Below, in pieces: positions 15,068 to 56,678 of a stretch of 64,000 bases of DNA. Within the stretch, counting starts at the first letter, position 1, and every line of letters starts with the position of its first letter. The translations under genes and the position numbers were made by a program. The stretch is from Marinoscillum pacificum (lineage in GTDB: Bacteria > Bacteroidota > Bacteroidia > Cytophagales > Cyclobacteriaceae), in the NCBI RefSeq assembly GCF_024714495.1, contig NZ_JAMZMJ010000001.1, positions 1,240,001 to 1,304,000 on the forward strand, given 5' to 3'. Under the pieces are notes generated by a model. That model did no database searches. It worked only from the letters and a program-made list of their open reading frames with translations, and was not told the origin of the DNA.

Positions 15068-15487
15068 TTAAGAATCTAGAAAACGATCTTTCAACTCTGG
15101 AGTGGGAATGCGACAAGCATCTTGCTTGCCAAACCATCGGTATCGGTTTCTGGCAATTAAGTCGTAAAAGAAATCTCTAAAGCCTACTGGAAGAATTCGG
15201 AAAACGGATAACAGGGGCCATAAACCAGACAACTTAGATGCTATTTTAAGTGCGGCAGTACTCTTATGATAAACCTTACCGTCTTCCACCAATACAATAC
15301 TGTCTAATCTTTCTGGATTTATAGAAGTAGGTTCCAACAATGCTTTTGCGGCCTCAGATTGTAAGGATGCAAACTGAAAGAATCCTCTATCTCTATCAAT
15401 AACGAAATTGACAGATGAATTACAAAGATTACAAACACCATCAAACAATACCACTGGTTGATCATTTACCTGATTACCTGCACCCAT
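15068..15487 (-). CDS. DCC family thiol-disulfide oxidoreductase-like protein (DUF393)
   Basis: This 139-residue protein carries the family signature FDGVCNLCNSSVNF (residues 15-28), with the CxxC that gives the group its predicted thioredoxin-like redox role. The rest fits the DCC family (a PERLDSIVLVEDGKVYHKS segment and a C-terminal RNRYRWFGKQDACRIP). No signal peptide is present, so it should be cytoplasmic. Its start overlaps the 3' end of the preceding surface protein gene by 22 nt on the same strand. Substrate unknown. Confidence 0.9.
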   Translation of the reverse strand: MGAGNQVNDQPVVLFDGVCNLCNSSVNFVIDRDRGFFQFASLQSEAAKALLEPTSINPERLDSIVLVEDGKVYHKSTAALKIASKLSGLWPLLSVFRILPVGFRDFFYDLIARNRYRWFGKQDACRIPTPELKDRFLDS

Positions 15488-18258
15488 CCTTTAATAATTT
15501 CTTTGGCCTTTTTTTGATCCAGCACGTCAAAAATAACAACTGCTGAATAATAATAAATGCCAGACTCCACCAATTGATCTAATTTATTTCTTCCATCCCA
15601 ATTGATAAAGACACCTTCCTCATTTTCGAAAGATTCGTATTCAAAGACCTCAGAACCATTGCGATCGTAAACTGTAAATAGCACAGATAGGACTGATCTA
15701 GGACAATCTGATGTATTCAATCCTGAGTTTTCTGAGACCTGTAAATTGAACGGTGTAAATACATCATTAATTCCATCACCATTGGGCGTGAATACATTTG
15801 GCAAGGAATAATTAGGACAATTATCCCGACAAACGACATCTGTGAACTCACTTTCATTTCCAGAGCGATCAACTGAAGAAATTCGATAACATCCTTTAAT
15901 ACTCGTTAAAAACCCTCTTTCCAGATGATTATCAGATGTGGAGGCTAACAACATAAAATCATCCACCAACCCTGTTGGAGAAAAATAGACATTGTAATAA
16001 GCCAAATCATCATCACAATCGGAAGCTATATCACCATTCCAGGTTAGTTGTTGATTAAAAAGAACAGGATTGCAAGAACCAGAGACCATATGACTTTCAC
16101 ATTCATTCATCCCAACCAATATCAGATTCTCAGGTTTACAAGGAGGAATTAGGTCAAGTAATCGAGCACATGCTACCTGCGAGGAATTAAGCAAAGGTTC
16201 TGGTAGCAGATCATTATCATAAGATCCTTGTGTAGTAATGAAATAACAATAATCCTGTCCTGCAATCAACTCCTCATCTTTATCGATATAAGAGAACCCA
16301 TTTTCTGTAACGTTTACAGAATCGATCAATTCTAATGGATTCCCTACACCCAATCCTCTGTAGATATAGTGATATGGATATTGATGGGTATGATTTGACC
16401 ATGGCACATCTGCAGACCAACTCAATTTTATACTAGCAAAAGTAGGAACTGAGGTTAGACGAGGTGAAGCGGCTATCGCAGAGGAATCAAGAAACACTCC
16501 ATTACCATCATAAGCCATAACGAAGTATTGATAAACCTTATCATAGGTGTCAATATTTTCATCTATAAATACAGTATCGATCAGGCTTTGACCCAACTTT
16601 TGAAATTCGACTGAACCACTTTCAGCCCTTAATAAATCGTAATTATATGGCGGTGGGGAAACAGATTTATCTAATTGGTATGGAGGTGTCCATCTTACTG
16701 ACATTTGTCCGGTTAATGAATCTGTCGCCTTCACATCGACATTAGTAATTACAGGTGCATATACTTCAAACTGATCACAAACTTCCTCACTAACGTAACT
16801 CTCACCTCCGGTTGTACCACCAAACTCCACTACTAATCTGTAGCAATAGTTTGCTCCTGGTGCTAACCCAACTCCATGATCATTATCCAAATAGCTTGTT
16901 TTATCTATTTCGACACGATCAACCAATTCATACCCCGTATTGGAGGGCATTCCTGTCTCACAATCATCGATTTCTATAGCATATTCGCCCACCCTCCTCC
17001 AGACTTGCATAAATTCTGCGTTAGGGCATGAATAAGAATCCCAATCTAATTGTATAGTCCTATTTTGTCTAATGGTTGTTTCCAATCCTGTAGGAGCAGG
17101 ACCAACTACCGTAATTTGCCAGGTTTTAAAGTCCACAAGTGGTGGGCCAACTGCGGGTTGATCTGAAACTTTAACTTCTACCTGATATGGTCGTTCACGA
17201 ACGCTCTCACAAGCTGTTTCCCATAAAAAACGAGCTGTTGTTGGAGGATAAAGGTACTCTCCACTGCTTGGTTCTAATGATGCTGATGGAACAACTTCAA
17301 ACGGTCCTCCATATGCTTCAATCTTAATTGGATCTCCATCAATATCTTGAGCTCTAAATTCTTCATCGATGATAGTACCAGCAACCACACATAGATCATC
17401 CGGAATAAAGATCTCTGGTCTTTCATTATTGGTTTCTGTAACGATAATTTGCATGTCTCGCATCACATAACCAATTTGTTCCCATTTTCCCGTCTGCTTG
17501 ATAAACCTCCATTCTTCAATTAAAAAAGCAACGTTGTATGCTGCTCGATCACCTTGATTCAACAACTGCCCTGGCGCATCCCAAACCAAGTTTCCTTTTA
17601 AAGGGTCCAAAGTCAATATTGGGGGACCATTCAACGCAGCATTACCAATATCAAAGTCCTCATAGAAGGCTGTATCATTTAACACTCTATAGTTACTTAC
17701 TTCATCATCGGCTGTTTGACGTGGGACTAGGAATCGAAATGACAAACTATCTCCATCAATGTCAAATGCTCCCGGATTATGTAAAAAAACAGAACCAACA
17801 GCAGCATAATCTATAGGTGGCACCGTGAAATATGGAGAATTATTTAACCCATAAAATGGGTCAATAACGATCATCGTTTCAACATAAAAAGGATTGAAAT
17901 CAGAGTTATCAATATTAATAATGTTGGCATTTCTATAATTCTCCTGATAAGAAACGATATAAGAGTTTGCTGACTGATACGTATGAACCAGACGAAACTG
18001 AACCATCTCTGTGTTGTTACCCACTGACGTCTTAATGATTTCGAAGTTTCGCTCTATCGAATTTCCATCTCCAAATTCGAATATTCCAGATCCAAATTCT
18101 AATATAGTACCTGAATCTCTAAAACCGGTAAAAGTAAATTCATAGGTATTTGCAATTGGATCAATACGCCTAGCCGTTATCTCTCCTGCACGAATGTGTG
18201 ATCCATAAACATTCAAGCCTATAGATAATAATAGTAGACTTATGAGGGATTTGAGCAT
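15466..18258 (-). CDS. Secreted multi-domain surface protein with type B T9SS C-terminal domain (copy 1)
   Basis: This 930-residue protein has a signal peptide (residues 1-19), then a beta-rich N-terminal domain beginning SHIRAGEITARR (20-150). A DIDGDSLSF/DIDGDPIKI-rich region with cadherin/Ig-like character follows. Several fibronectin-III-like domains start near PTGLETTIRQNR (about 395), APVITNVDVK (about 500), TSVPTFASIKLSW (about 605) and PPCKPENLILVG (about 705). A gliding-motility-associated C-terminal domain with LPNVFTPNGDGINDVF (about 825) and a final GWVQVIR end it. This C-terminal type is a type IX secretion signal, so it should be exported and surface-attached or released. It is the most divergent of three tandem copies. 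A role in adhesion or gliding is inference. Confidence 0.9.
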   Translation of the reverse strand: MLKSLISLLLLSIGLNVYGSHIRAGEITARRIDPIANTYEFTFTGFRDSGTILEFGSGIFEFGDGNSIERNFEIIKTSVGNNTEMVQFRLVHTYQSANSYIVSYQENYRNANIINIDNSDFNPFYVETMIVIDPFYGLNNSPYFTVPPIDYAAVGSVFLHNPGAFDIDGDSLSFRFLVPRQTADDEVSNYRVLNDTAFYEDFDIGNAALNGPPILTLDPLKGNLVWDAPGQLLNQGDRAAYNVAFLIEEWRFIKQTGKWEQIGYVMRDMQIIVTETNNERPEIFIPDDLCVVAGTIIDEEFRAQDIDGDPIKIEAYGGPFEVVPSASLEPSSGEYLYPPTTARFLWETACESVRERPYQVEVKVSDQPAVGPPLVDFKTWQITVVGPAPTGLETTIRQNRTIQLDWDSYSCPNAEFMQVWRRVGEYAIEIDDCETGMPSNTGYELVDRVEIDKTSYLDNDHGVGLAPGANYCYRLVVEFGGTTGGESYVSEEVCDQFEVYAPVITNVDVKATDSLTGQMSVRWTPPYQLDKSVSPPPYNYDLLRAESGSVEFQKLGQSLIDTVFIDENIDTYDKVYQYFVMAYDGNGVFLDSSAIAASPRLTSVPTFASIKLSWSADVPWSNHTHQYPYHYIYRGLGVGNPLELIDSVNVTENGFSYIDKDEELIAGQDYCYFITTQGSYDNDLLPEPLLNSSQVACARLLDLIPPCKPENLILVGMNECESHMVSGSCNPVLFNQQLTWNGDIASDCDDDLAYYNVYFSPTGLVDDFMLLASTSDNHLERGFLTSIKGCYRISSVDRSGNESEFTDVVCRDNCPNYSLPNVFTPNGDGINDVFTPFNLQVSENSGLNTSDCPRSVLSVLFTVYDRNGSEVFEYESFENEEGVFINWDGRNKLDQLVESGIYYYSAVVIFDVLDQKKAKEIIKGWVQVIR

Positions 18259-18269
18259 GCAATGTAAAG

Positions 18270-18311
18270 TCTAGTTAATCAATCGTTAACCGTAATTTAC
18301 TCAAACAATTA
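18270..18311. repeat. 42-bp direct repeat, unit A
   Basis: This 42-bp segment between copies 1 and 2 of the surface protein genes is identical to 21128-21169 between copies 2 and 3. It includes GTTAATCAATCGTTAAC, a small dyad, and ends inside the stop region of copy 2. It marks the boundary of a tandem duplication that included intergenic DNA. Confidence 0.9.
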
Positions 18312-21116
18312 TTTAATAACCTGCACCCAGCCTTTAAAGGTCTGATTGGCATCAGAAGGATTCAGCACGTCAAAAACCACCTCAGCAGAGTAGTAATAAA
18401 CACCAGCAGCGACATCTTCACCTCTTAGATCTTTTCCATCCCAGTTGATGTAAATACCATTTTCATTCTCGAACGAATCATAATTAAAGATTTCAAGTCC
18501 ACTTCGATCAAATACCTTGAATTTGACAGACTCCACAAACCTTGGACAATCTGCAGAATTGAAACCTACTATACCTAATCCATTATTGTTCAATGGAGCA
18601 AACACATCATTTACTCCATCACCATTTGGCGTAAAGACATTTGGCAGTTTGTACACCGGACAATTATCACGACAAATAGACTCTGTGGGAGCACTTTCAT
18701 TACCAGATCGATCCACAGCCGTAATTCGATAACAACCTTTAATACTTGATAGGTCTTCACGGATGATACTTGTGACTGGTGTATTTGCAATTATCTCATA
18801 ATCCTCTTCCAGTCCAGTTTCTGACAAATAAACGTTATAAGAAACAACATCGTCTTCACACAACTCTGCATTATTGGAATCCCATGTCAATTCCTGTCGG
18901 TAGAATGTGGCTCCACAAGGAACATCTGCCAATACAGACTCACAGTCTCCAGCATCTATGAACGACAATTGTAATGGTGCGCAAGGTGGAATGGTATCAT
19001 TAGGTTGTCCACAGGCAATCTGAGATGCATTCAACAGAGGTTCAGGCAACAACTCATTGTCATAAGAACCTTGAGCAATTACATAATAACAATACTCTAT
19101 TTCATCGTCTAGTTTCACATCATTGAACCTCCCATTGTCAAGATAGGTATAGCCATTTGACGTTACATCTACCGAATCAATAAGCACCAATTGAGTATCA
19201 TCAGCATTCACCTGATCTCTGTAGATATAGTGATACGGGTAATTCTGTACCGTATTAGACCATGGCACACTGGCAGACCAACTCAATTCTATCGATTCAA
19301 GTAAAGGTTTTAACTCTAATCGTACCGGACCTGCCACAGCTGATGAATCAATGTAAACATCGTTGGCGTCATAAGCTCTTACGTAGTAATTGTACCTTCT
19401 TGCAAAAGTATTTAACCCAGAATCTGTAAAAACTGTATCTGCTGTTTGACTTTGGATCAGTTCATAATTATTGGAACCGGCTTCTGTTCTAAGTAAATCG
19501 TAACTATATGCTGGTGGGAATAATGATTGATCAATTTGATAAGGAGGTGTCCATCTTACCTCTATCGAACCATTGTTCATGTCTGTAGACTTCACATCCA
19601 CATTAGTAATAACCGGAGCAAAAACTATGACACTATCACATGCTTCTTCACTCACATAACTCAAACCACCTCCTGGTGCTTCAAATTCAGCAACTAAACG
19701 ATAACAATAATTAGCGCCGGGAGCAAGTCCTCTTCCATTGTTATTATCAAAATAGCTTGTCTCATCTATTGAAATCCGGTCTATCAATTCGTAGCCTGTA
19801 TTGGACGGCATCCCTACATCACAATCATCCACCTCTATATCAAATTCTCCTACTCTTCGCCAGATTTGCATCGAATCGGCATTTGAACATTGGTAATTAT
19901 CCCATGACAATTGCATAGACCTATCTGCTTGAGTTTGTGCTGTCAAGCCTGTTGGAGCAGGACCAACGACTGTTATTTCCCATGTTTCAAAATTGACCAA
20001 CCTGGGTCCTATTTCAGGGTCATCGGTAATCTTTACCTGCACCTGATAAGGTCTTGCTCTTACGTGTCCACAAGCAGTATTCCAGGTGAATGTGGTGTAT
20101 GCAGGTGGCTCTATAAATCCTCCATCATTGGGAAAGTAAGTCGCTGTGGGAGCTACTTCAAACGGCCCACCAAACATTTCTACTCTTACAGGATCTCCAT
20201 CAGGGTCTGTTCCTTCGAAGAATTCCTCAACTGTTGTGCCCGCCTCAACACATATGTTTTCTGGGATCAATAGCTCTGGACGCTCATTATCAGTCTCTTC
20301 TACGATGATTTGCATGTCTCGAACAACAAACCCAAGTCGTTCCCATCTTCCAGTAATCGGTATGTAGCGCCATTCTTCTATAATAAAGGCTACGTTGTAT
20401 TCAGCTCGATCTCCTTGATTCAGTTCCTGGCCTGGAGCATCCCATGTCAGATCTCCGATTACAGGATCAATGGTTAATCCAGGAGGTCCATTCTGCGCTT
20501 CGTTTCCCTGAGCAAATGTGTCATAGAACTGAGGATCATTTAAGACTCTATAATTATTGACTACACTGTTTCGGGCTTGCTTAGGAGTAGTAAAACGATA
20601 CGATAGACTATCACCATCTGGATCAAAAGCCCCTGCATTGTGAATAAATAAAGCTCCCACCGCAGCGTAATCTATTGGCGGAACGGTTAATACTGGAGAA
20701 CTATTTGTTCCATAAAAAGGATCAATAACAACCAGTGACTCCACATAAAACGTGGTGTTTCTAGAATTGTCCATATTAATAATATTGGCGTTTCTAAAAT
20801 CCTCCTTAAAAGAAACGACATAGGCATTTACCGCCTGATAAGTATGAACAAGAGTAAAAGTGACTAACTCAACTTCGTCGCTTATATATTTCTTTGAGTA
20901 CTCAAAGTCACCTGTTACGGAAGTGCCGTCACCAAAATCAAAAACACCATTCCTAAATTCCACACCTTCCACATCACGATATCCGTGGAAAGTAAATTCA
21001 TAGGTTAAATTGAAATCACTTATCCTTTTGGAAGTTATCTCTCCTGCACGAATGTGAGAACTATATGCATTCCATCCTATTGTAAATAATAGAAGAGTTG
21101 TGAAGACTTTAAGCAT
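18309..21116 (-). CDS. Secreted multi-domain surface protein with type B T9SS C-terminal domain (copy 2)
   Basis: This 935-residue protein has the same architecture as its neighbours: signal peptide (1-19), N-terminal domain (20 to about 145), cadherin/Ig-like region with DPDGDSLSYRF and DPDGDPVRVEMF, four or so fibronectin-III-like domains, and the type IX sorting domain with LPNVFTPNGDGVNDVF and a final GWVQVIK. From about residue 146 to the end it differs from copy 3 at only around ten positions that I could see, whereas the first 120 mature residues are clearly different. No PorP/SprF-type partner gene is adjacent, although such partners often accompany type B domains. Function unknown; adhesion, matrix or motility roles are possible. 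Confidence 0.9.
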   Translation of the reverse strand: MLKVFTTLLLFTIGWNAYSSHIRAGEITSKRISDFNLTYEFTFHGYRDVEGVEFRNGVFDFGDGTSVTGDFEYSKKYISDEVELVTFTLVHTYQAVNAYVVSFKEDFRNANIINMDNSRNTTFYVESLVVIDPFYGTNSSPVLTVPPIDYAAVGALFIHNAGAFDPDGDSLSYRFTTPKQARNSVVNNYRVLNDPQFYDTFAQGNEAQNGPPGLTIDPVIGDLTWDAPGQELNQGDRAEYNVAFIIEEWRYIPITGRWERLGFVVRDMQIIVEETDNERPELLIPENICVEAGTTVEEFFEGTDPDGDPVRVEMFGGPFEVAPTATYFPNDGGFIEPPAYTTFTWNTACGHVRARPYQVQVKITDDPEIGPRLVNFETWEITVVGPAPTGLTAQTQADRSMQLSWDNYQCSNADSMQIWRRVGEFDIEVDDCDVGMPSNTGYELIDRISIDETSYFDNNNGRGLAPGANYCYRLVAEFEAPGGGLSYVSEEACDSVIVFAPVITNVDVKSTDMNNGSIEVRWTPPYQIDQSLFPPAYSYDLLRTEAGSNNYELIQSQTADTVFTDSGLNTFARRYNYYVRAYDANDVYIDSSAVAGPVRLELKPLLESIELSWSASVPWSNTVQNYPYHYIYRDQVNADDTQLVLIDSVDVTSNGYTYLDNGRFNDVKLDDEIEYCYYVIAQGSYDNELLPEPLLNASQIACGQPNDTIPPCAPLQLSFIDAGDCESVLADVPCGATFYRQELTWDSNNAELCEDDVVSYNVYLSETGLEEDYEIIANTPVTSIIREDLSSIKGCYRITAVDRSGNESAPTESICRDNCPVYKLPNVFTPNGDGVNDVFAPLNNNGLGIVGFNSADCPRFVESVKFKVFDRSGLEIFNYDSFENENGIYINWDGKDLRGEDVAAGVYYYSAEVVFDVLNPSDANQTFKGWVQVIK

Positions 21117-21127
21117 ATGAGGTAAAT

Positions 21128-21169
21128 TCTAGTTAATCAATCGTTAACCGTAATTTACTCAAACAATTA
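21128..21169. repeat. 42-bp direct repeat, unit B
   Basis: Identical to 18270-18311. It lies between copies 2 and 3 of the surface protein genes and reaches into the stop region of copy 3. Confidence 0.9.
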
Positions 21170-24013
21170 CTTAATCACCTGCACCCAGCCTTTAAAGATC
21201 TGATTGGCATCTGATGGATTGAGCACATTAAATACAACTTCTGCCGAGTAGTAATAAACACCAGCAGCGACATCTTCACCTCTTAGATCTTTTCCATCCC
21301 AGTTGATGTAAATACCATTTTCATTCTCGAACGAATCATAATTAAAGATTTCAAGTCCACTTCGATCAAATACCTTGAATTTGACAGACTCCACAAACCT
21401 TGGACAATCTGCAGAATTGAAACCTACTATGCCCAATCCATTGTTGTTCAAAGGAGCAAACACATCATTAACTCCATCACCATTTGGTGTAAAGACATTT
21501 GGCAGTTTGTACACCGGACAGTTATCACGACAAATAGACTCTGTGGGAGCACTTTCATTTCCAGATCGATCCACGGCCGTAATTCGATAACAGCCTTTAA
21601 TACTTGATAGGTCTTCACGGATGATACTTGTGACTGGTGTATTTGCAATTAATTCATAATCCTCTTCCAGTCCTGTTTCTGACAAATAAACATTGTAAGA
21701 AACAACATCGTCTTCACACAACTCTGCATTATTAGAATCCCATGTCAATTCCTGTCGGTAGAATGTGGCTCCACAAGGAACATCTGCCAATACAGACTCA
21801 CAGTCTCCAGCATCTATGAACGACAATTGTAATGGTGCGCAAGGTGGAATGGTATCATTAGGTTGTCCACAAGCAATCTGAGAGGCGTTCAACAGAGGTT
21901 CTGGCAACAACTCATTGTCATAAGAACCTTGAGCTATCACGTAATAACAATATTCTATTTCATCGTCTAGTTTCACATCATTGAACCTCCCATTGTCAAG
22001 ATAGGAATAGCCATTTGACGTTACGTCTACCGAATCAATAAGCACCAATTGAGTATCATCAGCATTCACCTGATCTCTGTAGATGTAGTGATACGGGTAA
22101 TTCTGTACCGTATTAGACCATGGCACACTGGCAGACCAACTCAACTCTATCGATTCAAGTAATGGTTTTAACTCTAATCGCACTGGACCTGCCACAGCTG
22201 ATGAATCAATATAAACATCGTTGGCATCATAAGCTCTTACATAGTAATTGTACCTTCTTGCAAAAGTATTTAACCCAGAATCTGTAAATACTGTATCGGC
22301 TGTTTGACTTTGGATCAGTTCATAGTTATTGGAACCGGCTTCTGTTCTAAGTAAATCGTAACTATATGCTGGAGGAAATAAAGATTGATCAATTTGATAA
22401 GGAGGTGTCCATCTTACCTCTATCGAACCATTGTTCATGTCTGTAGACTTCACATCCACATTAGTAATAACCGGAGCAAAAACTATGACACTATCACATG
22501 CTTCTTCACTCACATAACTCAAACCGCCTCCTGGTGCTTCAAATTCAGCCACTAATCGATAACAATAATTAGCGCCGGGGGCAAGTCCTCTTCCATTGTT
22601 ATTATCAAAATAGCTTGTCTCATCTATTGAAATCCGGTCTATCAATTCATAGCCTGTATTGGCCGGCATTCCTACATCACAATCATCCACCTCAATATCA
22701 AACTCTCCTACTCTTCGCCAAATTTGCATCGAATCAGCATTTGAACATTGGTAATTATCCCACGACAATTGCATGGATCTGCCTGCTTGGGTTTCTGCTG
22801 TCAAGCCTGTTGGAGCAGGACCAACGACTGTTATTTCCCATGTTTCAAAATTGACCAACCTTGGTCCTATTTCAGGGTCATCGGTAATCTTTACCTGCAC
22901 CTGATAAGGTCTTGCTCTTACGTGTCCACAAGCAGTATTCCAGGTGAATGTGGTGTATGCAGGTGGCTCTATAAATCCTCCATCATTGGGAGAATAAGTT
23001 GCAGTGGGAGCTACTTCAAATGGCCCACCAAACATTTCTATTCTTACAGGATCTCCATCAGGATCTGTTCCTTCGAAGAATTCCTCAACTGTTGTGCCCG
23101 CCTCAACACAAATATTTTCTGGGATCAACAGCTCTGGACGCTCATTATCAGTCTCTTCTACGATGATTTGCATGTCTCGAACAACAAACCCAAGTCGTTC
23201 CCATCTTCCAGTAATCGGTATGTAGCGCCATTCTTCTATAATAAAGGCTACATTATATTCTGCTCGATCTCCTTGATTCAGTTCCTGGCCCGGAGCATCC
23301 CATGTCAGATCTCCGGTTACAGGATCAATGGTTAATCCAGGAGGTCCATTCTGCGCTTCATTTCCCTGAGCAAATGTGTCATAGAACTGAGGATCATTTA
23401 AGACTCTATAGTTATTGACTACACTGTTTCGGGCTTGCTTTGGAGTAGTAAACCGATACGATAGACTATCGCCATCGGGATCAAAAGCTCCTGCATTGTG
23501 AATAAATAAAGCTCCAACCGCAGCGTAATCTATTGGTGGAACGGTCAGTATCGGAGTGTTATTTCTGCCATAAAATGGGTCTATAACAATTAAAGATTCC
23601 ACATAGAAAGCCGTATTAACCGAATTATCCATGTTAATAATGTTGGCATTTCTGAAATCCTCTTTATACGACACTACATAGGAATTGGCTGCCTGGTATG
23701 TGTGAACAAGTCGAAACTGTACCATCTCTGTATCATTACCAACAGAGGTTTTAATTATTTCAAAATTTCGTTCAACCGAATTTCCATCTCCAAATTCAAA
23801 GATTCCAGCACCAAACTCAATAATTGAACCTGAATCTCTAAATCCTGTAAAGGTGAATTCATAAGTAAGCGTAACATCATCTACTCTGCGGGCAGTGATT
23901 TCTCCAGCACGAATGTGGGTAGCATCCAACCTGGTCGTTTGTAAAAAAAAGAATAGAAATAGGAAAAGACTGAATACTCTAATACCTAACTCACCTAACT
24001 TATTGTTCATCAT
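21167..24013 (-). CDS. Secreted multi-domain surface protein with type B T9SS C-terminal domain (copy 3, mosaic)
   Basis: This 948-residue protein is the first of the three tandem copies in transcription order. A hydrophobic signal segment (about 12-27, rich in Leu/Phe) precedes ATHIRAGEITARR. The N-terminal domain (about 32-150) matches copy 1, sharing RDSG, EFGDGNS, ERNFEIIKTSVGN and TEMVQFRLVHTYQ. From about KEDFRNANIINMDNS onward it is nearly identical to copy 2. It is therefore a recombinant of the two neighbours. The rest carries the cadherin/Ig-like region, fibronectin-III-like domains and the type IX sorting domain described for copy 2. The first Met of an MM pair is used as start; the second is equally possible. 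Confidence 0.9.
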   Translation of the reverse strand: MMNNKLGELGIRVFSLFLFLFFFLQTTRLDATHIRAGEITARRVDDVTLTYEFTFTGFRDSGSIIEFGAGIFEFGDGNSVERNFEIIKTSVGNDTEMVQFRLVHTYQAANSYVVSYKEDFRNANIINMDNSVNTAFYVESLIVIDPFYGRNNTPILTVPPIDYAAVGALFIHNAGAFDPDGDSLSYRFTTPKQARNSVVNNYRVLNDPQFYDTFAQGNEAQNGPPGLTIDPVTGDLTWDAPGQELNQGDRAEYNVAFIIEEWRYIPITGRWERLGFVVRDMQIIVEETDNERPELLIPENICVEAGTTVEEFFEGTDPDGDPVRIEMFGGPFEVAPTATYSPNDGGFIEPPAYTTFTWNTACGHVRARPYQVQVKITDDPEIGPRLVNFETWEITVVGPAPTGLTAETQAGRSMQLSWDNYQCSNADSMQIWRRVGEFDIEVDDCDVGMPANTGYELIDRISIDETSYFDNNNGRGLAPGANYCYRLVAEFEAPGGGLSYVSEEACDSVIVFAPVITNVDVKSTDMNNGSIEVRWTPPYQIDQSLFPPAYSYDLLRTEAGSNNYELIQSQTADTVFTDSGLNTFARRYNYYVRAYDANDVYIDSSAVAGPVRLELKPLLESIELSWSASVPWSNTVQNYPYHYIYRDQVNADDTQLVLIDSVDVTSNGYSYLDNGRFNDVKLDDEIEYCYYVIAQGSYDNELLPEPLLNASQIACGQPNDTIPPCAPLQLSFIDAGDCESVLADVPCGATFYRQELTWDSNNAELCEDDVVSYNVYLSETGLEEDYELIANTPVTSIIREDLSSIKGCYRITAVDRSGNESAPTESICRDNCPVYKLPNVFTPNGDGVNDVFAPLNNNGLGIVGFNSADCPRFVESVKFKVFDRSGLEIFNYDSFENENGIYINWDGKDLRGEDVAAGVYYYSAEVVFNVLNPSDANQIFKGWVQVIK

Positions 24014-24331
24014 TGCTTATTCAACAATTTCAAATGGCCTTATCCTTAATGTAACCGCAAATGAATGTATTCTAAACAGGGATACGATTACAAGGTCTAA
24101 AGATAAGACATCAATCTTAACCCGTTGGTTTAAAAAAAAATTCTTTCAAGTAGATTTTATTTCCTGCTTTAAATCAAAACGCTACTGTCCTAATCAAAAT
24201 TTTAGTCAAGAAAAATTTAAAAAGTTCAAAACATTCTTTTTCAAACAAATGTTGGCGAGGCAAATGAAATTCAGACCTATGGACTTACATATAGACGCCT
24301 TATTTAGAAACATTCAAAATAAGTTTTCGAA
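24014..24331. other. Divergent intergenic region upstream of sdhC
   Basis: This gap separates the minus-strand surface protein gene from the plus-strand sdh operon. Apart from the sdh promoter at its right end I see only AT-rich DNA. A TATCTTTA on the minus strand, about 90 nt before copy 3, is a one-mismatch -7 box. The plus-strand reading frame through here continues from antisense coding sequence and is not convincing. Confidence 0.4.
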
Positions 24332-24362
24332 TTGCCAGATCGGAGGTTGGGAACTACCTTTG
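24332..24362 (+). promoter_or_regulatory. Promoter of the sdhCAB operon
   Basis: TTG at 24332-24334 and TACCTTTG at 24355-24362 are separated by 20 nt. The -7 box is a perfect match to the Bacteroidota consensus TAnnTTTG. Transcription should begin near 24370, about 25 nt before the sdhC ATG. Confidence 0.7.
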
Positions 24363-24394
24363 GGTCCGCACAAAAATGAAATCACAAAATAATT

Positions 24395-27935: not shown

Positions 27936-30650
27936 TTGAAAAAATTCTTAATTTTTCTTTCAATCGTTTTATTAATTGGAACAGGTTACTTCACTTATGA
28001 CAAATGGGTGAAGGACGCTAATGTTACCTTGTGGTCATTCGTGCCAAATAACGCCGTTTTGGTTTACGAATCCTCTACCCCACTCAGAACCCTCAAAGAA
28101 ATAGCTACTACAGATGTCTGGAAGAATCTAAATTACATTCAACCTGTAGCTAACATCCAAAACGATCTCGACATTCTGGATACACTTGCTGGAAAAGGAA
28201 ATTTCTCAGCATTTTTTGAAGATACTCCTACTTTGATTTCGGTTGATATCACCTCAAGCACCAGTATCGACTTTTTATTTATCGTTGAAATTCAAAATCT
28301 ATCTCAGCAAAGCTTTATCAGTAAGGCTCAGGCGTATTTTGAAAAACAAGGTTTCAGCAAACGTACAAGAGAGTACGATGGGTTTACCATCACCGAGTTA
28401 GTAGGAAAAACACCGAACGAATCCTTCACCTATATTTTCTACAAAAATTATTTCATAGGCAGTTTTTCAGCCTTCCTGGTTGAAGATGCAATTCGTACAA
28501 TGAGTGATTCTGAGAATCTTGATTTCGAAGCACGGAACCCAGAGCTAAAGCAACTTACCAAACTAGCCAAAGATCAAGGCAACGTTTACGTCAATGCTCA
28601 AAGAATTGGAGACCTGGTCAATGTAACTGCTGCTAACAACACACAAATCGATCTAAGCAAATCAGGGTTCCTTGATCTAAAGATCAGTGAGGATTTAATC
28701 AACCTCACAGGGTTCCTATTTTTAGAAGATGAGACCGAATACCTTCATAATTTTTCCGGGTTGGACGGTGCTTCATTTGACATGTCAGAAATAGTGCCCA
28801 ACAACACAGCCTGGATCTACCATTTTGGCACTAACGACCCAATTAAGCTTGGAGAAAACCTTGCGAAACATTTCCAGAAAAATCAGCCGAAAGTCCTTGC
28901 TGAACGTCAACGTATTCAAAAAGAATATGACCTGGATGTGAATCATACCTTCACGCTAATCGATGAAGAAATTGGTCTGTTATCTTTAGAATCAACTGTC
29001 ACCGGCAACAGAAATCAATTAATGATTTTGGAGACCAACGACATGGGAGAAGCGCTGAGATTCTTCAATTCAGTTGGAGAACGTGAAATGCAAGCAACAG
29101 GAGACTCTTTGTATTTAGAACAATATGGTGACTATGAAATAAGGAAACTCCCTGCTGCAAACTTCCCTTATGCCCTGATCGGTTCCTTAGCGGGTGATTA
29201 TAAAGACTGCTATTACTTACAGTATCGAAACTATTTGATCTTTAGCAATCACCTTCAGCAACTAAAAAACCTGACATTGTCTATAGAGGACGAAGCTACC
29301 TGGACCAAATCTATTCGTATCAATCGATTCCTTGAAAAAGGCAATCAGGAGTCTAATTTCAGCTTGTATATCAACACGCCAAGAGCATGGAATCAAGTGC
29401 TTAAAGAACTGAAACCTGAATGGAAAAGTATCTTTGAAGAGTATCAGTTTTCCCTAAAGAACCTGGAGTTCATTACAACACAATTCAGTGCAGTGGACGA
29501 CAAGTTTTATACCAACGTCAACATCTATCAACCGAATCTTCCAAAGAGAAATATTCCTGATCGTATTGCCGCACTAAAGACCTTAACTGTTGCTGATTAT
29601 ATAACCACCAAGCCCTACCTGTTACTTAATCACAATGACAGAAGTTATGAAACATTTATCCAGGATACTACCAACACAATCTACCTTATTGATAAAAACT
29701 TTAATGTGCTTTGGGACAAGCAATTAGATGAGCAAATCATTAGTGATGTTAGTCAGATTGATTATTATAACAATGGCAAATTGCAAATGATCTTTACTAC
29801 TGCTCATCAGGTTCACATAATCGATCGTACTGGTGCTTATATTCCAGAATTTCCCAAGAGCCTCCCGGAAAATCGTGAAATTGAATACTTTAACATCATT
29901 GACTATGATAATAGTAAAAAGTATCGCTTTGCAATAGCTGGTAAAAATGGCAATGTATATCTAACAGACAAAAACCTTAAGGTACTGGAGGGTTGGGATC
30001 CAAAGGCTTTCCAGGATCCTCTGGTAATGGCACCTCAACACCTTAGAGTGAATGGAAAAGATGTGATTGTCATACAAGAAACCAGTGGCAAACTTTGGGT
30101 ATTAACAAGAAGAGGAACCAATTACCCTGGATTCCCTAAAAACCTGGAAGCAGAAGTTACCAGTCCTGTATTTATTAAAAATGCGAATAGCTTTGATGAA
30201 GCTACTGTAACCGTGCTTACCAAAACAGGCGAACTGATAGAGTTCAACTTAAATGCCCAGATGACAAATCGTGATCAGATTTATAAACCTGGTCTTGAGA
30301 CACAATTCGAACTTCTTGAAGATGTGACTGGAGACAGCTATGTCATCGTTCGAAAAACTGACAACAAGTACGAGATTCTCAATGAACAAGGGGAACCATT
30401 ATTCCAGAAAGACTATTTCTCAAAAACTCCTCTCATCACACAATACTATCAATTAGGTAGTGGAGTAGAGTTTATCGTCATGGTGGACACTGGAGGCACT
30501 TTCCTATATGTCTATGACCAAAGTGGCAATTTGATTAGTGGCAGACCTCTTACCGCATCTTGCCCAGTGTCAATCATGCAATATGAAAATGAGTACCAGA
30601 TTTACAAAGCTGTAGATCGTAATCTGGAACTCATTTCAATTAGTTATTAA
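27936..30650 (+). CDS. Large membrane-anchored protein, DUF3352-like N-terminus and propeller-like C-terminus
   Basis: This 904-residue protein starts at TTG with an uncleaved-looking N-terminal anchor (about residues 4-22), so it is probably tethered in the inner membrane and faces the periplasm. Residues 30-540 resemble DUF3352-type proteins (the WSFVPNNAVLVYES opening and repeated SLYINTP-like segments), a loose resemblance. Residues 560-900 contain repeated short blocks of the kind YLIDKNFNVLWDKQL, VHIIDRTGAYIPEFP and VYLTDKNLKVLEGW, spaced like the blades of a beta-propeller. No catalytic motif is visible. It lies alone between the sdh terminator and a convergent MATE gene, with 4 nt of stop overlap. 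Function unknown. Confidence 0.85.
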   Translation: MKKFLIFLSIVLLIGTGYFTYDKWVKDANVTLWSFVPNNAVLVYESSTPLRTLKEIATTDVWKNLNYIQPVANIQNDLDILDTLAGKGNFSAFFEDTPTLISVDITSSTSIDFLFIVEIQNLSQQSFISKAQAYFEKQGFSKRTREYDGFTITELVGKTPNESFTYIFYKNYFIGSFSAFLVEDAIRTMSDSENLDFEARNPELKQLTKLAKDQGNVYVNAQRIGDLVNVTAANNTQIDLSKSGFLDLKISEDLINLTGFLFLEDETEYLHNFSGLDGASFDMSEIVPNNTAWIYHFGTNDPIKLGENLAKHFQKNQPKVLAERQRIQKEYDLDVNHTFTLIDEEIGLLSLESTVTGNRNQLMILETNDMGEALRFFNSVGEREMQATGDSLYLEQYGDYEIRKLPAANFPYALIGSLAGDYKDCYYLQYRNYLIFSNHLQQLKNLTLSIEDEATWTKSIRINRFLEKGNQESNFSLYINTPRAWNQVLKELKPEWKSIFEEYQFSLKNLEFITTQFSAVDDKFYTNVNIYQPNLPKRNIPDRIAALKTLTVADYITTKPYLLLNHNDRSYETFIQDTTNTIYLIDKNFNVLWDKQLDEQIISDVSQIDYYNNGKLQMIFTTAHQVHIIDRTGAYIPEFPKSLPENREIEYFNIIDYDNSKKYRFAIAGKNGNVYLTDKNLKVLEGWDPKAFQDPLVMAPQHLRVNGKDVIVIQETSGKLWVLTRRGTNYPGFPKNLEAEVTSPVFIKNANSFDEATVTVLTKTGELIEFNLNAQMTNRDQIYKPGLETQFELLEDVTGDSYVIVRKTDNKYEILNEQGEPLFQKDYFSKTPLITQYYQLGSGVEFIVMVDTGGTFLYVYDQSGNLISGRPLTASCPVSIMQYENEYQIYKAVDRNLELISISY

Positions 30651-48136: not shown

Positions 48137-48886
48137 ATGCGCATAGCCCAACACATTCTTTTCTGGACGCTGATATTGGTATTCCTGACAATCACCTTTG
48201 GCCAGGCTGATGGTCAGTACACTAAATCATTTTATTATGTCACTTTCCTATTACCTGTGGCAATTGGCACCTCTTATTTTTTCAATTATTGGTTAGTGCC
48301 AAACTACTTACTTAAGCAACGCTATGTCAAATTCGGACTGTATTGCTTTTATACTTTGATCATCTCCCTCTATTTTGAAGAGATTGTGCTTACCACTGCA
48401 TTCATCGTGTTGGCAAACTATAAATACGCCAATCTAAACCCCTACTCCACTAACCTATTCCTGCTCACAACAACCATATATTTTATCGTATTCGTCAACG
48501 CATTTATTCTTCTCATCAAGAGATATCAAAGAAAAGAACACTTACTCAACAGAATAGAAGAACAAAATGAAAAGAACAAAACCCAGCAAATCATTGTAAA
48601 AGTTGATCGTCAGAATAAACCTATAGAGCTAGACAACTTAATGGTAGTGGAAAGTCTAGCTGATTACGTCAAACTTCACCTTACAAGCGAAAGTGTAATC
48701 ACTAAAGAGAAGATCAGTCAATTTCAGGAAAAGCTCCCTGACAACTTCATAAGAGTTCACCGCTCGTTTATTGTCAACAAACAACACATTGGCACTTTTG
48801 GAAAAGAAGAGTTATCTATTGGAGAAATGAAAATCAAGATTAGCCGTACTTACAAAAAAGAAGCGCTCGAGGCACTTGAAGTTTAG
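48137..48886 (+). CDS. Membrane-bound LytTR-type DNA-binding regulator
   Basis: This roughly 249-residue protein has four hydrophobic helices (about 5-22, 34-52, 64-92 and 103-124), a short coiled linker (RKEHLLNRIEEQNEKNK) and a C-terminal LytTR DNA-binding domain. The DNA-binding domain includes LMVVESLADYVKLHL and NFIRVHRSFIVNKQHI. A LytTR domain tethered to the membrane would act as a one-component sensor-regulator. The ATG at 48137 is used because the 46 codons upstream lack conserved features and overlap the region upstream of the divergent gene. The stop overlaps the convergent kinase gene by 4 nt. Confidence 0.88.
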   Translation: MRIAQHILFWTLILVFLTITFGQADGQYTKSFYYVTFLLPVAIGTSYFFNYWLVPNYLLKQRYVKFGLYCFYTLIISLYFEEIVLTTAFIVLANYKYANLNPYSTNLFLLTTTIYFIVFVNAFILLIKRYQRKEHLLNRIEEQNEKNKTQQIIVKVDRQNKPIELDNLMVVESLADYVKLHLTSESVITKEKISQFQEKLPDNFIRVHRSFIVNKQHIGTFGKEELSIGEMKIKISRTYKKEALEALEV

Positions 48887-51624
48887 GATTTCAGAATAAC
48901 TCCTGGCTTCTTCCCAAACCGTTTCTCGAATAGATTTGAAAAGTAGGCTGCCTGCTTAAACCCAACTGCTGAAGACAGTTCTGATATACTCGAATACGCC
49001 TTTCTTCTAGCCAAATCATTGGCATAGTTCAGTTTGATCTCCTGAATGAACTGAAGTGGCGTAAACCCCGTTGTTGACTTCAAATAGCGGTAGAGTTGAC
49101 GCTCACTCATAGCCGCAGCATCGGCTAAACGTAAGACGTTGAAATTGGAGTCTCCAATATTCTCTAAAACCTGCTGTTTCAGGCGTGCTATGACCTTTTC
49201 ATCATATGAAACAGGCAACTCCGATTTCTGAGCCAATGACACACGCTGCATGTAATTGCTGTAGAGATTTCTCACTCTGATTATCAACTCATCAGAATCA
49301 AACGGTTTTAACAAATAGTCATCTATTCCTATCTGAAAGAGTTCCTTTTTTAGTGCTTCATCATGTAATGCAGTCAGATGAATAAAAGGAATGTGTTTCC
49401 AGGCATCACTCTTTTTCACCTCCTTCAGAAAACTGATTCCATCCATCTCAGGCATCATGATATCAGAAATCACGAATTTCACATCAAACTGACCTAGCAT
49501 CTCCAAGCCAAGCTTTCCATTACCTACATTTTTCACATTGAAATAGGGCTCCAATAGAGATGAAATGTATGATGTCATATCATCATTATCTTCAAGAAGC
49601 AGCAATATTGGCTTTACATCTAAACTTGAATTGATAGGCGAATTGCCAAGAACCTCTTGCTTAAGTTCTTCGATTGATGGCAACAAGGCATCATCCACAG
49701 CAATAATCTCCTCAGGTAAGATCAACGTGAACGTACTACCCATACCTGGAGTACTGGTTACTCGAAGTTCGCCTCCATGCATTTCTGCAATGTCTTTGCT
49801 GAGTGCCAATCCTACACCTGTTCCTCCAACTATTTTGTTGATATCCTTCGACTGATAGAATCGATCAAAAATGTGATTGATATCATCGGAACTGATTCCT
49901 CTACCAGTATCTTTAACAACCACTTTGAGATTTCCCTTTGCAGATTTGGTCACAAAAACCTCTATCAGGCCATCATATGGAGTAAACTTCAGCGCATTAG
50001 AAATCAAATTGATGACAATCTTCTCCAACTTATCATAATCAGCTGTGACCTGATCATGTGCATTGATCACCAATTTCAAGTGAATACCCAACTGTCCTGC
50101 TCTGGATTCAAATGCGGATACTACTCTGGAAACTAAACCATCCAAAGAGAATGTTGACTCTTTAATGGATACTTCACCATTCTCCATTTTCGATAGATCG
50201 AGTATTTCATTTACCAAATTGGTTAAACTCAACGTATTACGGTTTACCAATTCCAAATCGGCACGCATATCGGTAGTCAAATCATTGGATGACAAAATCT
50301 TCTGTACAGGACCTTTAATTAAGGTAAGAGGTGTCCTTAGCTCATGCGCTACATTCACAAACCATTTACTCCTGTTAGCACTTACACTTTCTATTTCTTT
50401 CAAATGTTGCTCAATCTCCTGATTTTTAGACCTTAGCATATCATTAGTCCGTTTTCTCAACACGTAACCTCTATAGATGAGGAGTAGCACGGCAGCAAGT
50501 AACAAGACACACAGTATCAAAATAATTTGCAGATTTCGATGCCTTTCCAAATCACCTCCAGCGGCTTCCAATTGTAGGTTCTTTTCCGCTAACTGGCGCT
50601 CTTGTTTCTCTGATTGATATTTAGCTTTTATTCCAGCGACCAACCTGGAGTTTTGAATATTATATAAAGAGTCTTCTTGCTCATCTAGCTGAACAAATGT
50701 ATCGTAGGCCTCCTTGTATCTCCCTTGATTATAATAGATCTGCTGAAGCACATCCCTTGCATTCTCTTTGAGTTGATCATTGGATATCTGATGAGCAATT
50801 TCCAGAGTTTTATTCATGTAATACTCCGCTGAATCATATTGAGAAAACTCAAAAAACATATATCCAAGGCCCTGATACCCAAACCCAATAGCTCTTAGGT
50901 CCTGAGTCTCTATGGCAATTCTTAAACTTTCACGACTATGGAATTCTGCCTTGGAATTATTCCCAAGTACTCGGTAATCAATCCCCATTGCGTGATGAAT
51001 TCTGTGAAGCAAAGTCTTATCACCAATCAAGGTAGCAATTTCCTCTGCCTGATTATAAAGCTTAAATGCCCTATTCAAATCTCCATCATCAGCATACGTA
51101 CCACCTATATTGTAAGTACTGCTGGCTATTACTGCTGAATCCTTCAATAGTGAAGCCAATTCCACACAACTTTGATAAAATTGTCTTGCAGCCTCATGAT
51201 CACCTAGATAATCGTAGTTAACTCCTATCTGCCGAAGAGTCGTCAAATACTCTAGCGAATCTTGATTTAACCGAAATATTTCAAGTGCACTAACAAGCAA
51301 TTCGATGGCTTCAGCTCGATCATCCTCTTCCATAGCCATCATCGCACGTGATCTCGCAATTTCGGCATAAGCCACTGTCGAATAATCAGATAATAGGCTT
51401 TCGGCTTGATCTAGTAATTTCCTTGACTCCCTAAAATCATGAGATGTTTGAGCTTTCTCAGCTAATTCTACATATACTCGAATTAAAGAGTCCTTTGAGA
51501 TTTCATTTTGTCCATATTGCGAAGTAGCCCGATGCAGTATAACAGAATCCTGACTGGAACTAAATCCAAAAGTCAATTGGGCATATCCAATAAGAAAGAA
51601 TATTAGCGAGTAAACTCTAAGCAT
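48883..51624 (-). CDS. Hybrid sensor: TPR, histidine kinase, receiver and AraC HTH
   Basis: This roughly 913-residue protein combines a whole phosphorelay and its output. A signal peptide (about 1-20) is followed by TPR-like repeats (about 40-350), then a transmembrane helix (IILILCVLLLAAVLLLIY). The cytoplasmic part has HisKA with NVAHELRTPLTLIKG, HATPase with NLISNALKF, DTGRGIS and GTGVGLALS, a receiver with VISDIMMPEMDG, and an AraC-type HTH ending in SNLFEKRFGKKPG. The ATG at 51624 is preferred because it begins a clean signal peptide; an upstream in-frame start adds 42 residues without one. The sensed signal is unknown. Confidence 0.93.
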   Translation of the reverse strand: MLRVYSLIFFLIGYAQLTFGFSSSQDSVILHRATSQYGQNEISKDSLIRVYVELAEKAQTSHDFRESRKLLDQAESLLSDYSTVAYAEIARSRAMMAMEEDDRAEAIELLVSALEIFRLNQDSLEYLTTLRQIGVNYDYLGDHEAARQFYQSCVELASLLKDSAVIASSTYNIGGTYADDGDLNRAFKLYNQAEEIATLIGDKTLLHRIHHAMGIDYRVLGNNSKAEFHSRESLRIAIETQDLRAIGFGYQGLGYMFFEFSQYDSAEYYMNKTLEIAHQISNDQLKENARDVLQQIYYNQGRYKEAYDTFVQLDEQEDSLYNIQNSRLVAGIKAKYQSEKQERQLAEKNLQLEAAGGDLERHRNLQIILILCVLLLAAVLLLIYRGYVLRKRTNDMLRSKNQEIEQHLKEIESVSANRSKWFVNVAHELRTPLTLIKGPVQKILSSNDLTTDMRADLELVNRNTLSLTNLVNEILDLSKMENGEVSIKESTFSLDGLVSRVVSAFESRAGQLGIHLKLVINAHDQVTADYDKLEKIVINLISNALKFTPYDGLIEVFVTKSAKGNLKVVVKDTGRGISSDDINHIFDRFYQSKDINKIVGGTGVGLALSKDIAEMHGGELRVTSTPGMGSTFTLILPEEIIAVDDALLPSIEELKQEVLGNSPINSSLDVKPILLLLEDNDDMTSYISSLLEPYFNVKNVGNGKLGLEMLGQFDVKFVISDIMMPEMDGISFLKEVKKSDAWKHIPFIHLTALHDEALKKELFQIGIDDYLLKPFDSDELIIRVRNLYSNYMQRVSLAQKSELPVSYDEKVIARLKQQVLENIGDSNFNVLRLADAAAMSERQLYRYLKSTTGFTPLQFIQEIKLNYANDLARRKAYSSISELSSAVGFKQAAYFSNLFEKRFGKKPGVILKS

Positions 51625-51778
51625 GTGACTAGTGCGGTGGCGGTGTTCAAGTAAGATAAACAACGACCTCCCAAAAAAAGGAGCCTCATCCTTAGAAAAT
51701 TCAACAATTACCCTAAATATGGTAGCTGAATCCCTAAAAAATGCAAACAATCAACCATAATTCACAAACAGTTTTAAG

Positions 51779-53771: not shown

Positions 53772-56678
53772 CTAAGAGAAATAATCAGAAGGTTTTTTCC
53801 CAAACCTTTCTTGATAAAGTTTAGAAAAATAAGATGCTGACTCCAATCCAATCTCGTTGGTAATTTGAGCTAACTTGTCATACCTTCTAGAAACCAATAA
53901 TTCACGCGCATGCTGAAGCCGAATTTCACTAATCAATTTGGAAGGACTCAGGCCCACTGACTCAGCTGTTTTGCGATAAAGTTGTCGCTCACTTAAACCG
54001 AGATACATTGCCAATTGTGTGACATTTAACTTACGATCTCCAATATTGTTCTTCACGTAATCTCGAATGTTCAGGACCAACTGGTTTTCTTCTGTTAAAT
54101 CCTGATGCTCTTCTTCAAACTCCCTGGCCCATTTGATTCGCTCCCTCAGGTTATTAATGACATTAGATATCCGAATCAACAATTCTTCCACTTCAAATGG
54201 CTTGATAATGTAATCATCTACACCCAATCGCAAACCTTTGATCTTATCAGAGCTTTCTGCTACTGCGGTTAAGACAATTACAGGGATCTTTGAAAGTGCC
54301 ATATCAGACTGAATATTTTCCAACATGGTCCACCCATCCATCACAGGCATCATTACATCGGTTAGAATCAAATCCGGCTTTATCTGCTTTAGCAAATCCA
54401 ATGCCTGCTGTCCATCATCAGCTACGTGTAGCTCAAAATGATCCCCTAGTATGTCTGAGAGATATGCTTGCAGCAGTCTGTTGTCCTCCACAATCAATAT
54501 AGAGGTATCAGATGGCACTTTTAAAGTGTCTCTAAACTCAACAGATACATCAAGGGAACCAGAAACATCTGACGTGGTTATGTCATTTTGAACTGTAGGA
54601 ACAAGGTCAGATAAAGGAAGAACGACTTTTAGCAAAGCTCCACCATCTATATTGTTATTTGCAGAAATCTGCCCATTCATTTGCTCAATCAACTCGCGAG
54701 AGATTGCAAGACCCAGCCCTGATCCTTTTATACTATCATTATAACCTCCAACCTGATAGAATCGGTCAAAAATATAGGGCATGTCTGCATCAGGTATACC
54801 AGCACCATTGTCGGTTACCTTTAGAATTACTTGTGCTTCCTCTACTACCGTAATAACCTCAACTTCACCACCACTACCCACGAATTTGAAAGAATTGTAG
54901 ATGATGTTATTCAGCACTTTTTCAAACTGTGCTTCATCAATATCTACTACCGTTTGAGCAGAAATATCTGAAATATATTTCAAATCAATCTGATTGCTTT
55001 CTGCAAGTGAGGAGAATGCTGCTACAATTCTCGAAACCAATGGATCGAAATAGATCGGTTTGAGATTCACAACATTCTTTTTCAATTCCACCTTAGACAA
55101 ATCCAACAAATCGTTGACCAGTGATGTCATTTGTTTCACATTGCCTTTGATTTTATTAGCAGGCTCTACTGCTTCAGCAGACAACTTATTAATCCTCAGA
55201 ATGGCATCAGCATTGCCTTGAATCAAGGTAAGAGGCGTACGTAGCTCATGACTAATGTTGGCAAAGAATTGTGATTTCAGGTTATTGGTACGTTCCAGCT
55301 CATCATTTTGATGACTAATGGTTATCAACGCTTGTTCACGCTGCTCACCTAGATATTTTTTCTTTTGATACAGCCTGTAAATGACGATAAGTAAAATGGC
55401 CACAGCAATGAAACCAATTAAAAGAGAGTAAGTCAGCATACGCTGTAGCTTCAAACTTTTTCCTTGTGATGAATTTAGAGATGATAACTGATGATTCACA
55501 TATTTTGATCGATCCAAGGCATATTTAGACTCCAATCGTCCCATCTCCCGTTCTTTTTCAGCATTCATCAGACTATCAGCAGCTGCCTCATGCTTGACTT
55601 GATTTTCATAAGCCTTCCGATAATTTCCTACTTTGGCATATAATTCAGACAAATCCTGGGAAAGCGCTTCAATTTCGTTCAATAAATTTTGCTGCTCTGC
55701 TAGTATTAACCCTTTCTCTGCTAAAACTATCGCTTCGTTTGTCTTACCAATATCCGTAAGGCATCGAGAGTAATTCATATAATAAAGAACTTGACCGTAC
55801 GCATCGTTGGTTGCTTTGAAAAAATCAAAAGCACTATCCAGATAGATCATTGCCTCCTGATATTGCCCACTATGCTCAGCATTCATTCCCAGGTTTAACC
55901 TGGTAATTGCCATTCCAAAGTTGAACTCGAGTTGTTTAGCTAAGGTCAAACCTCTTCTAAAATAATATTCAGCACTATCAAATTGATCCAGGTAAGAATA
56001 AGCTAAACCGATATTGTTATCAATCTGAATCAACCTATTGGTCGAGCTGTTTTTAGCGAAAATAGCATGGGCTAATTTGTTATAATCAAGAGCCATTTGA
56101 CTGTTCTCAATGGAACTATATAGCACTCCAAACTTGATATAAACCATACCTTTTAAGGAGTCATCATCAAGTTCTTCCGCTATTTTCAATGCTTCTTGAA
56201 AGAAAGACAAACCTTCAGTATACAAACCGGCATGTTCATGAACCTCACCAAGATTAATGTAAGCATTGAATGTAGCATAGTCATCTTCTACTTCCTGGGC
56301 GTACTGTAGCATCTGATCTGCAATGACAAAAGCAGAATCAAACTCTTGCTGTCGAAAGAAATAAGTATATCGCGCTCCAAAAAGACTAAATCTCGAAGAA
56401 TCTGCATAACTCTCCCAGTCCAACTGCAGCTGATCTAGAATATTTGGTATTGGTGCTAATCTTCCCTCATCGAGCAAATCAGCAATAAATACCAGGTATA
56501 ATTGAAGTCGTTCATTACTGCTTAACCCATGTTGTATACTTTCAATGTAGAGCTGTGCGGAATCAGGACTGGATTTTACGAATTGCTTAACAATCTGAAT
56601 TTCCTCAGGAGATTGGGCTGTGGAGGTTAAACACCAACCAACTAGTGTGAACAATAAAAAAGTCCGGATACGATTCAA
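53772..56678 (-). CDS. Hybrid sensor: TPR, histidine kinase, receiver and AraC HTH (second copy type)
   Basis: This 968-residue protein has the same plan as the one at 48883-51624: signal peptide (about 1-21, ending STAQS), TPR-like repeats (about 50-390) and a membrane helix (LLIGFIAVAILLIVIYRLY). HisKA follows with FANISHELRTPLTLIQG, HATPase with NIIYNSFKF, DNGAGIP and GSGLGLAIS, a receiver with LILTDVMMPVMDGW and an AraC HTH ending in SKLYQERFGKKPSDY. It starts at TTG. It directly precedes the aminotransferase-tyrA pair on the same strand, with at most 17 nt between. A terminator-like hairpin sits about 115 nt upstream of its start. Confidence 0.93.
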   Translation of the reverse strand: MNRIRTFLLFTLVGWCLTSTAQSPEEIQIVKQFVKSSPDSAQLYIESIQHGLSSNERLQLYLVFIADLLDEGRLAPIPNILDQLQLDWESYADSSRFSLFGARYTYFFRQQEFDSAFVIADQMLQYAQEVEDDYATFNAYINLGEVHEHAGLYTEGLSFFQEALKIAEELDDDSLKGMVYIKFGVLYSSIENSQMALDYNKLAHAIFAKNSSTNRLIQIDNNIGLAYSYLDQFDSAEYYFRRGLTLAKQLEFNFGMAITRLNLGMNAEHSGQYQEAMIYLDSAFDFFKATNDAYGQVLYYMNYSRCLTDIGKTNEAIVLAEKGLILAEQQNLLNEIEALSQDLSELYAKVGNYRKAYENQVKHEAAADSLMNAEKEREMGRLESKYALDRSKYVNHQLSSLNSSQGKSLKLQRMLTYSLLIGFIAVAILLIVIYRLYQKKKYLGEQREQALITISHQNDELERTNNLKSQFFANISHELRTPLTLIQGNADAILRINKLSAEAVEPANKIKGNVKQMTSLVNDLLDLSKVELKKNVVNLKPIYFDPLVSRIVAAFSSLAESNQIDLKYISDISAQTVVDIDEAQFEKVLNNIIYNSFKFVGSGGEVEVITVVEEAQVILKVTDNGAGIPDADMPYIFDRFYQVGGYNDSIKGSGLGLAISRELIEQMNGQISANNNIDGGALLKVVLPLSDLVPTVQNDITTSDVSGSLDVSVEFRDTLKVPSDTSILIVEDNRLLQAYLSDILGDHFELHVADDGQQALDLLKQIKPDLILTDVMMPVMDGWTMLENIQSDMALSKIPVIVLTAVAESSDKIKGLRLGVDDYIIKPFEVEELLIRISNVINNLRERIKWAREFEEEHQDLTEENQLVLNIRDYVKNNIGDRKLNVTQLAMYLGLSERQLYRKTAESVGLSPSKLISEIRLQHARELLVSRRYDKLAQITNEIGLESASYFSKLYQERFGKKPSDYFS

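Follow-up and report, generated by a model that had tools for sequence, protein, structure and literature searches.

Tandem surface protein genes of Marinoscillum pacificum with divergent heads and a shared body: probable regional gene conversion at a locus widespread in Cytophagales

Introduction

Regional gene conversion has been described in the clustered protocadherins of fugu, in which the 5′ part of the genes is 60-80% identical and the 3′ part over 99% identical (PMC1852091). In bacteria, the bab paralogues of Helicobacter pylori encode surface adhesins that recombine by intragenomic gene conversion (PMC4552749, which refers to Pride and Blaser, 2002, for concerted evolution), and surface proteins of Porphyromonas gingivalis, a type IX species of the Bacteroidota, are varied by recombination (PMC5266723). 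Here we describe an array of predicted type IX surface proteins in Marinoscillum pacificum that resembles these bacterial systems in both respects, and in which the part of the protein that is homogenised and the part that is spared are sharply separated.

Organization of the array and predicted protein architecture

The window (the whole stretch of 64,000 nucleotides that was analysed, to which all coordinates refer unless a locus is named) carries three tandem ORFs on the minus strand, transcribed in the order copy 3, copy 2, copy 1, with the following features:

21167..24013, minus strand: copy 3, 948 aa, first transcribed; full-length orthologue of the congener gene and probable body donor
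23546..23926, minus strand: head region of copy 3, residues 30-156, predicted PKD/Ig-like beta sandwich with an FGDG motif
21248..23545, minus strand: homogenised tract of copy 3, residues about 157-922, with a synonymous-codon identity of 0.90 to copy 2
21117..21166, minus strand: intergenic DNA after copy 3, of which about 42/50 bp match the DNA after copy 2; second small homogenised stretch
18309..21116, minus strand: copy 2, 935 aa; mosaic of an old divergent head and a body common to copy 3
20688..21065, minus strand: head region of copy 2, first 79 residues 55% identical to copy 3, synonymous sites saturated
18390..20687, minus strand: homogenised tract of copy 2, counterpart of 21248-23545
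18259..18308, minus strand: intergenic DNA after copy 2, counterpart of 21117-21166
15466..18258, minus strand: copy 1, 930 aa, last transcribed; body diverged (58% identity to copy 3), head conserved (82%)
17827..18207, minus strand: head region of copy 1, first 79 residues 82% identical to copy 3, synonymous sites saturated

The 3′ end of copy 1 overlaps a DCC-like ORF, as do the single copies in congeners. A C-terminal CHU_C domain (PF13585) was detected in copy 3 (residues 836-946, 46.9 bits for a cut-off of 27), as in all three copies (46-49 bits) and in 25/25 members of the family scanned. The NCBI model for type B sorting domains, TIGR04131, gave 22.8-23.4 bits in the copies, below its cut-off of 35, and we thus filed the proteins under CHU_C. 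This sorting domain makes them predicted cargo of type IX secretion. Copy 3 has a hydrophobic N-terminus (helix 3-26 in the model), and its structural model (mean pLDDT 86) is a chain of beta-sandwich domains, for which a fold search returned generic Ig/FN3 chains, e.g., contactin. The head, modelled over residues 31-160 (pLDDT 84), matched the Vibrio PKD1 domain (6aem) with a Z of 7.9 across 84 residues, a score that other Ig folds equalled; a Pfam PKD match was present in 2/25 members, and among solved structures a search by sequence recovered only a weak match to FlgD Ig. The model thus suggests an Ig or PKD-like sandwich for the head, and the architecture is that of putative adhesins, a fold likeness not in itself showing function.

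A homogenised body behind divergent heads

The sequence-only reading had described copies 2 and 3 as nearly identical from about residue 146 onward, with about ten visible substitutions, and as unlike at their N-termini, and this description stands. Their DNA is ∼61% identical up to about residue 157 and ∼96% identical from there almost to the end, which corresponds to 95-100% protein identity (mostly 92-100% for DNA) in alignment columns 165-920 and to just 41-56% protein identity in columns 41-108. Sliding-window identity and a breakpoint check gave a profile that is not uniform, with a sharp change point (maximum chi-square of 510 vs a maximum of 32 in 1000 permutations), and the maximal high-identity segment covers residues 157-945 (96% at the nucleotide level). 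From column 175 onward, 10 of the 92 codon differences alter the amino acid, so that the differences in the body are mostly silent. The synonymous-codon identity, i.e., the share of identical codons at residues equal in both copies, drops from 0.90 in the body to 0.44 in the head, and the last 26 codons have an intermediate value of 0.57. The silent-site divergence of a single pair of genes therefore differs sharply between gene parts, as expected for regional gene conversion, and the earlier proposal that the body was homogenised by this process is borne out by this contrast and by 26 comparable pairs in other genomes (see below).

The tract is bounded at both sides by older sequence, and identity within it is flat, without a gradient. 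GC3, which rises in the converted parts of fugu protocadherins (PMC1852091), shows no rise or other shift in the converted part of this genome, a point against the conversion model. The near-identity of copies 2 and 3 is interrupted at codons 923-934 (18309-18420 and 21167-21290), where the two sequences diverge, and resumes in the final codons and in about 42 bp of the intergenic DNA that follows. This arrangement suggests either two conversion tracts or a patch that was left out.

Near-identical tandem repeats are a known source of trouble in short-read assembly, and a collapsed or duplicated repeat could in principle mimic such a pattern. Copies 2 and 3 differ, however, at roughly 90 sites inside the tract and the array lies inside a 1.63-Mb contig, which argues against a duplicated-assembly artefact; the same head/body pattern also occurs in two single-contig genomes (G028 and G048). 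We consider an artefact extremely improbable.

The locus and its homogenised pairs in other Cytophagales

In many relatives from the family and the order, the gene is flanked by the divergently transcribed sdhCAB genes on one side and by the DCC-like ORF and then fabD on the other. A strong match was found in 374/390 genomes of a family sample and in 351/391 genomes of an order sample. Much of the order thus retains a surface-protein gene (here 15466-24392) in the interval between sdhCAB and fabD, genes to which it seems functionally unrelated. Some loci carry, just upstream of the main gene, a relative of 445-470 aa (L037, 3017-4363; L038, 1858-3267; L040, 12025-13362; L043, 9547-10959) that has the head and second domain of the main gene and a tail that looks like type A (Por-like), not CHU_C; this relative is absent from the present genome. 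One matching locus, L082 (PBTY01000020.1), is labelled as a Rickettsiales bacterium and resembles that of Marinoscillum, so that the label looks wrong. Elsewhere in the window, a 904-aa ORF downstream of sdhB (27936-30650) is conserved in congeners at 57-61% and has no Pfam match at an E-value of 1e-5, and two similar neighbouring one-component/hybrid regulators with TPR, histidine kinase, response regulator and AraC-type HTH domains are encoded on the minus strand (48883-51750 and 53772-56678).

We searched all the intragenomic paralogue pairs that were found and fetched (n = 67) for a high-identity segment of at least 230 codons at at least 90% identity. Such a tract is present in 27/67 pairs, from 13 genera and 4 families; most of the other pairs have no tract or short ones, indicating that homogenisation is not universal. 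Both copies are complete at their two ends in 22 of the pairs with a tract; in every one of these, it is the N-terminal flank that is spared (median of 361 codons) and the tract occupies the 3′ part, leaving a C-terminal flank with a median of 0 codons. Counted by genus, N-terminal sparing was observed in 13/13 (p = 0.0002). G118 looks like an exception, but the copy concerned is truncated at a contig end, and a differing head is present at the very end of another contig, which is probably the missing part of this copy. Tract starts range widely, from residue 88 to residue 707.

The body/head contrast of copies 2 and 3 would also be expected if copy 3 had been duplicated recently and the head of the new copy then replaced by a divergent one, e.g., from another strain. 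The near-identity of the intergenic DNA after copies 2 and 3 agrees with such a history, and this 42-bp match, which counts against the conversion model, allows for a partial duplication. Yet codons 923-934 are divergent inside what should be a single duplicated unit, and in most pairs from other genomes identity stops at the stop codon, the downstream flanks being unrelated or near random, which points to conversion rather than re-duplication. Moreover, in genus g132, heads are nearest to the same-position orthologue in 17/23 cases, whereas bodies are nearest to the genome's own paralogue in 24/24: the converted part is paralogue-like and the spared part orthologue-like, which is concerted evolution sparing the head. 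The same distinction is found in G028 and G407, where the bodies hardly differ inside a genome but have diverged strongly from one genome to the other. Heads that are orthologous by position across species indicate that the paralogues are older than their shared bodies, and we regard duplication followed by head replacement as improbable.

Copy 2, not copy 3, is the probable mosaic

On the basis of the N-terminal likeness of copies 1 and 3, copy 3 had been read as a mosaic produced by an exchange of N-terminal modules, the head of copy 1 having passed into copy 3, as in antigenic or ligand variation. The likeness itself is real: over columns 61-108, protein identity to copy 3 is 85-88% for copy 1 and 41-55% for copy 2, the proteins of copies 1 and 3 share 82% identity in the head vs 58% in the body, and a head tree groups them with a support of 94/88, below the tool's starred level, in an alignment too short to resolve most branches. 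However, copies 1 and 3 have a flat profile of synonymous-codon identity, with values of 0.50 (head) and 0.48 (body) that lie close to the saturated level also seen between species of the genus (about 0.45), which speaks against a recent exchange and indicates that the resemblance is old and has been kept by protein-level constraint. An older exchange between these heads, since erased at silent sites, may have taken place. Together with the value of 0.90 in the body of copies 2 and 3, the flat profile of copies 1 and 3 leaves one main recent tract, common to copies 2 and 3.

Comparison with the orthologue of genome G003 in three segments rules out copy 3 as the mosaic. Copy 3 is uniform against this protein (77/83/77%), its head being as close to the orthologue as its body, whereas copy 2 is uneven (56/71/76%); judged from these sequence identities, copying probably ran from copy 3, as the donor, to copy 2, as the recipient. 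In most congeners the locus holds a single full-length copy, in some cases preceded by the short relative, whereas the congener G002 carries in addition a divergent copy of 821 aa; an orthologue of copy 2 is absent from the congeners of this genome. Simple unequal crossing-over involving copy 1 was rejected, the heads of copies 1 and 2 being too old.

True head exchange does exist elsewhere. In G048, a tandem copy and a distant copy (L117, 8421-11255; L128, 4614-7499) are ∼93% identical in DNA over 181 codons of the head and ∼71% over the rest. This is the one case seen among the 67 pairs, and head exchange is therefore possible but rare in the sample. In the present genome, the search for silent donor cassettes of the pilE/pilS type returned the three copies and one distant 857-aa homologue only. 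Antigenic variation lacks the stock of donor heads that it would draw upon, and a swapping of heads between the copies appears very unlikely.

Why are the heads spared?

The sparing of the heads could reflect the mechanics of recombination alone, with conversion starting near the 3′ end or stopping at differing sequence and no selection on the heads needed. Residues 61-108 are indeed the least conserved stretch between orthologues (0.34), conversion cannot easily enter heads that are once different, and the wide range of tract starts fits such a process. On the other hand, residues 109-389 (0.47-0.51) are spared and no less conserved than the homogenised residues 390-948 (0.37-0.48), so that low conservation alone does not define the spared part: well conserved stretches to residue 390 and beyond are spared, and the poorly conserved residues 721-830 (0.37) are homogenised. 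Mechanics alone would also sit poorly with the 3′ edge of the tracts, which borders unrelated DNA yet is hardly eroded, and with the flat identity along the tract in this genome. We consider this explanation possible but rather unlikely.

Tract starts lie at most 10 residues from a domain linker in 18/27 pairs vs 6.6 expected, a clustering near domain borders that is suggestive only, as the linkers were set by eye from the model after the tract starts had been seen, several pairs come from one genus and the linkers are conserved; conserved linkers alone could draw tract borders to them. Selection for different heads is the reading that we favour, the heads presumably diversifying in the ligands they bind; no sign of positive selection was readable in the heads, whose sites are saturated.

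We propose, with a probability of roughly 0.75, that the stalk and sorting domain of these tandem surface proteins are repeatedly converted, that tracts overwriting the head are not retained, and that the last event in this genome replaced the body of copy 2 with that of copy 3. In this model, each protein would begin with a PKD-like head, continue as a chain of Ig/FN3-like domains and end in a type IX sorting domain. Homologous, presumably RecA-dependent copying between direct repeats would repeatedly homogenise the stalk and sorting domain of adjacent paralogues, and heads that bind ligands would be kept different by selection, tracts that reach into them being lost. The direction of the last event, most likely from copy 3 to copy 2, would follow from the orthologue comparison.

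Comparison with known systems

The head is the part likeliest to carry specificity in an uncharacterised and nearly universal surface protein of Cytophagales, and a single syntenic locus across the order offers many natural replicates in which the contributions of selection and of recombination mechanics to conversion borders can be compared.

The bab loci of H. pylori are not adjacent as the copies are here, they encode an outer-membrane porin-like family and not type IX cargo, and in bab chimeras a phase-variable 5′ region is fused with a different gene, with altered expression (PMC4552749), unlike the present array. In P. gingivalis, the variation consists of between-strain allelic exchange and domain rearrangement, with no tandem pair that combines a homogenised stalk and spared heads (PMC5266723); beyond this allelic exchange, the open-licence literature that we searched contains no report of the pattern in type IX proteins. 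The clustered protocadherins of fugu share with the locus described here tandem adhesion genes, a sharp border at the level of domains, the sparing of the membrane-distal domains and lineage-specific homogenisation; they differ in being dozens of vertebrate genes with variable exons and cadherin domains, and we claim no homology (PMC1852091). Regional conversion is thus an already known pattern, which is new for this protein family so far as the searched literature goes, and unusual in its replication across an order. More speculatively, and with doubt prevailing, the Cytophagales locus could encode pairs of large surface proteins that act as a recognition set, perhaps for kin, prey or surfaces, in which distinct heads are kept across species divergence on continually re-homogenised, interchangeable stalks, as a counterpart of the protocadherins.
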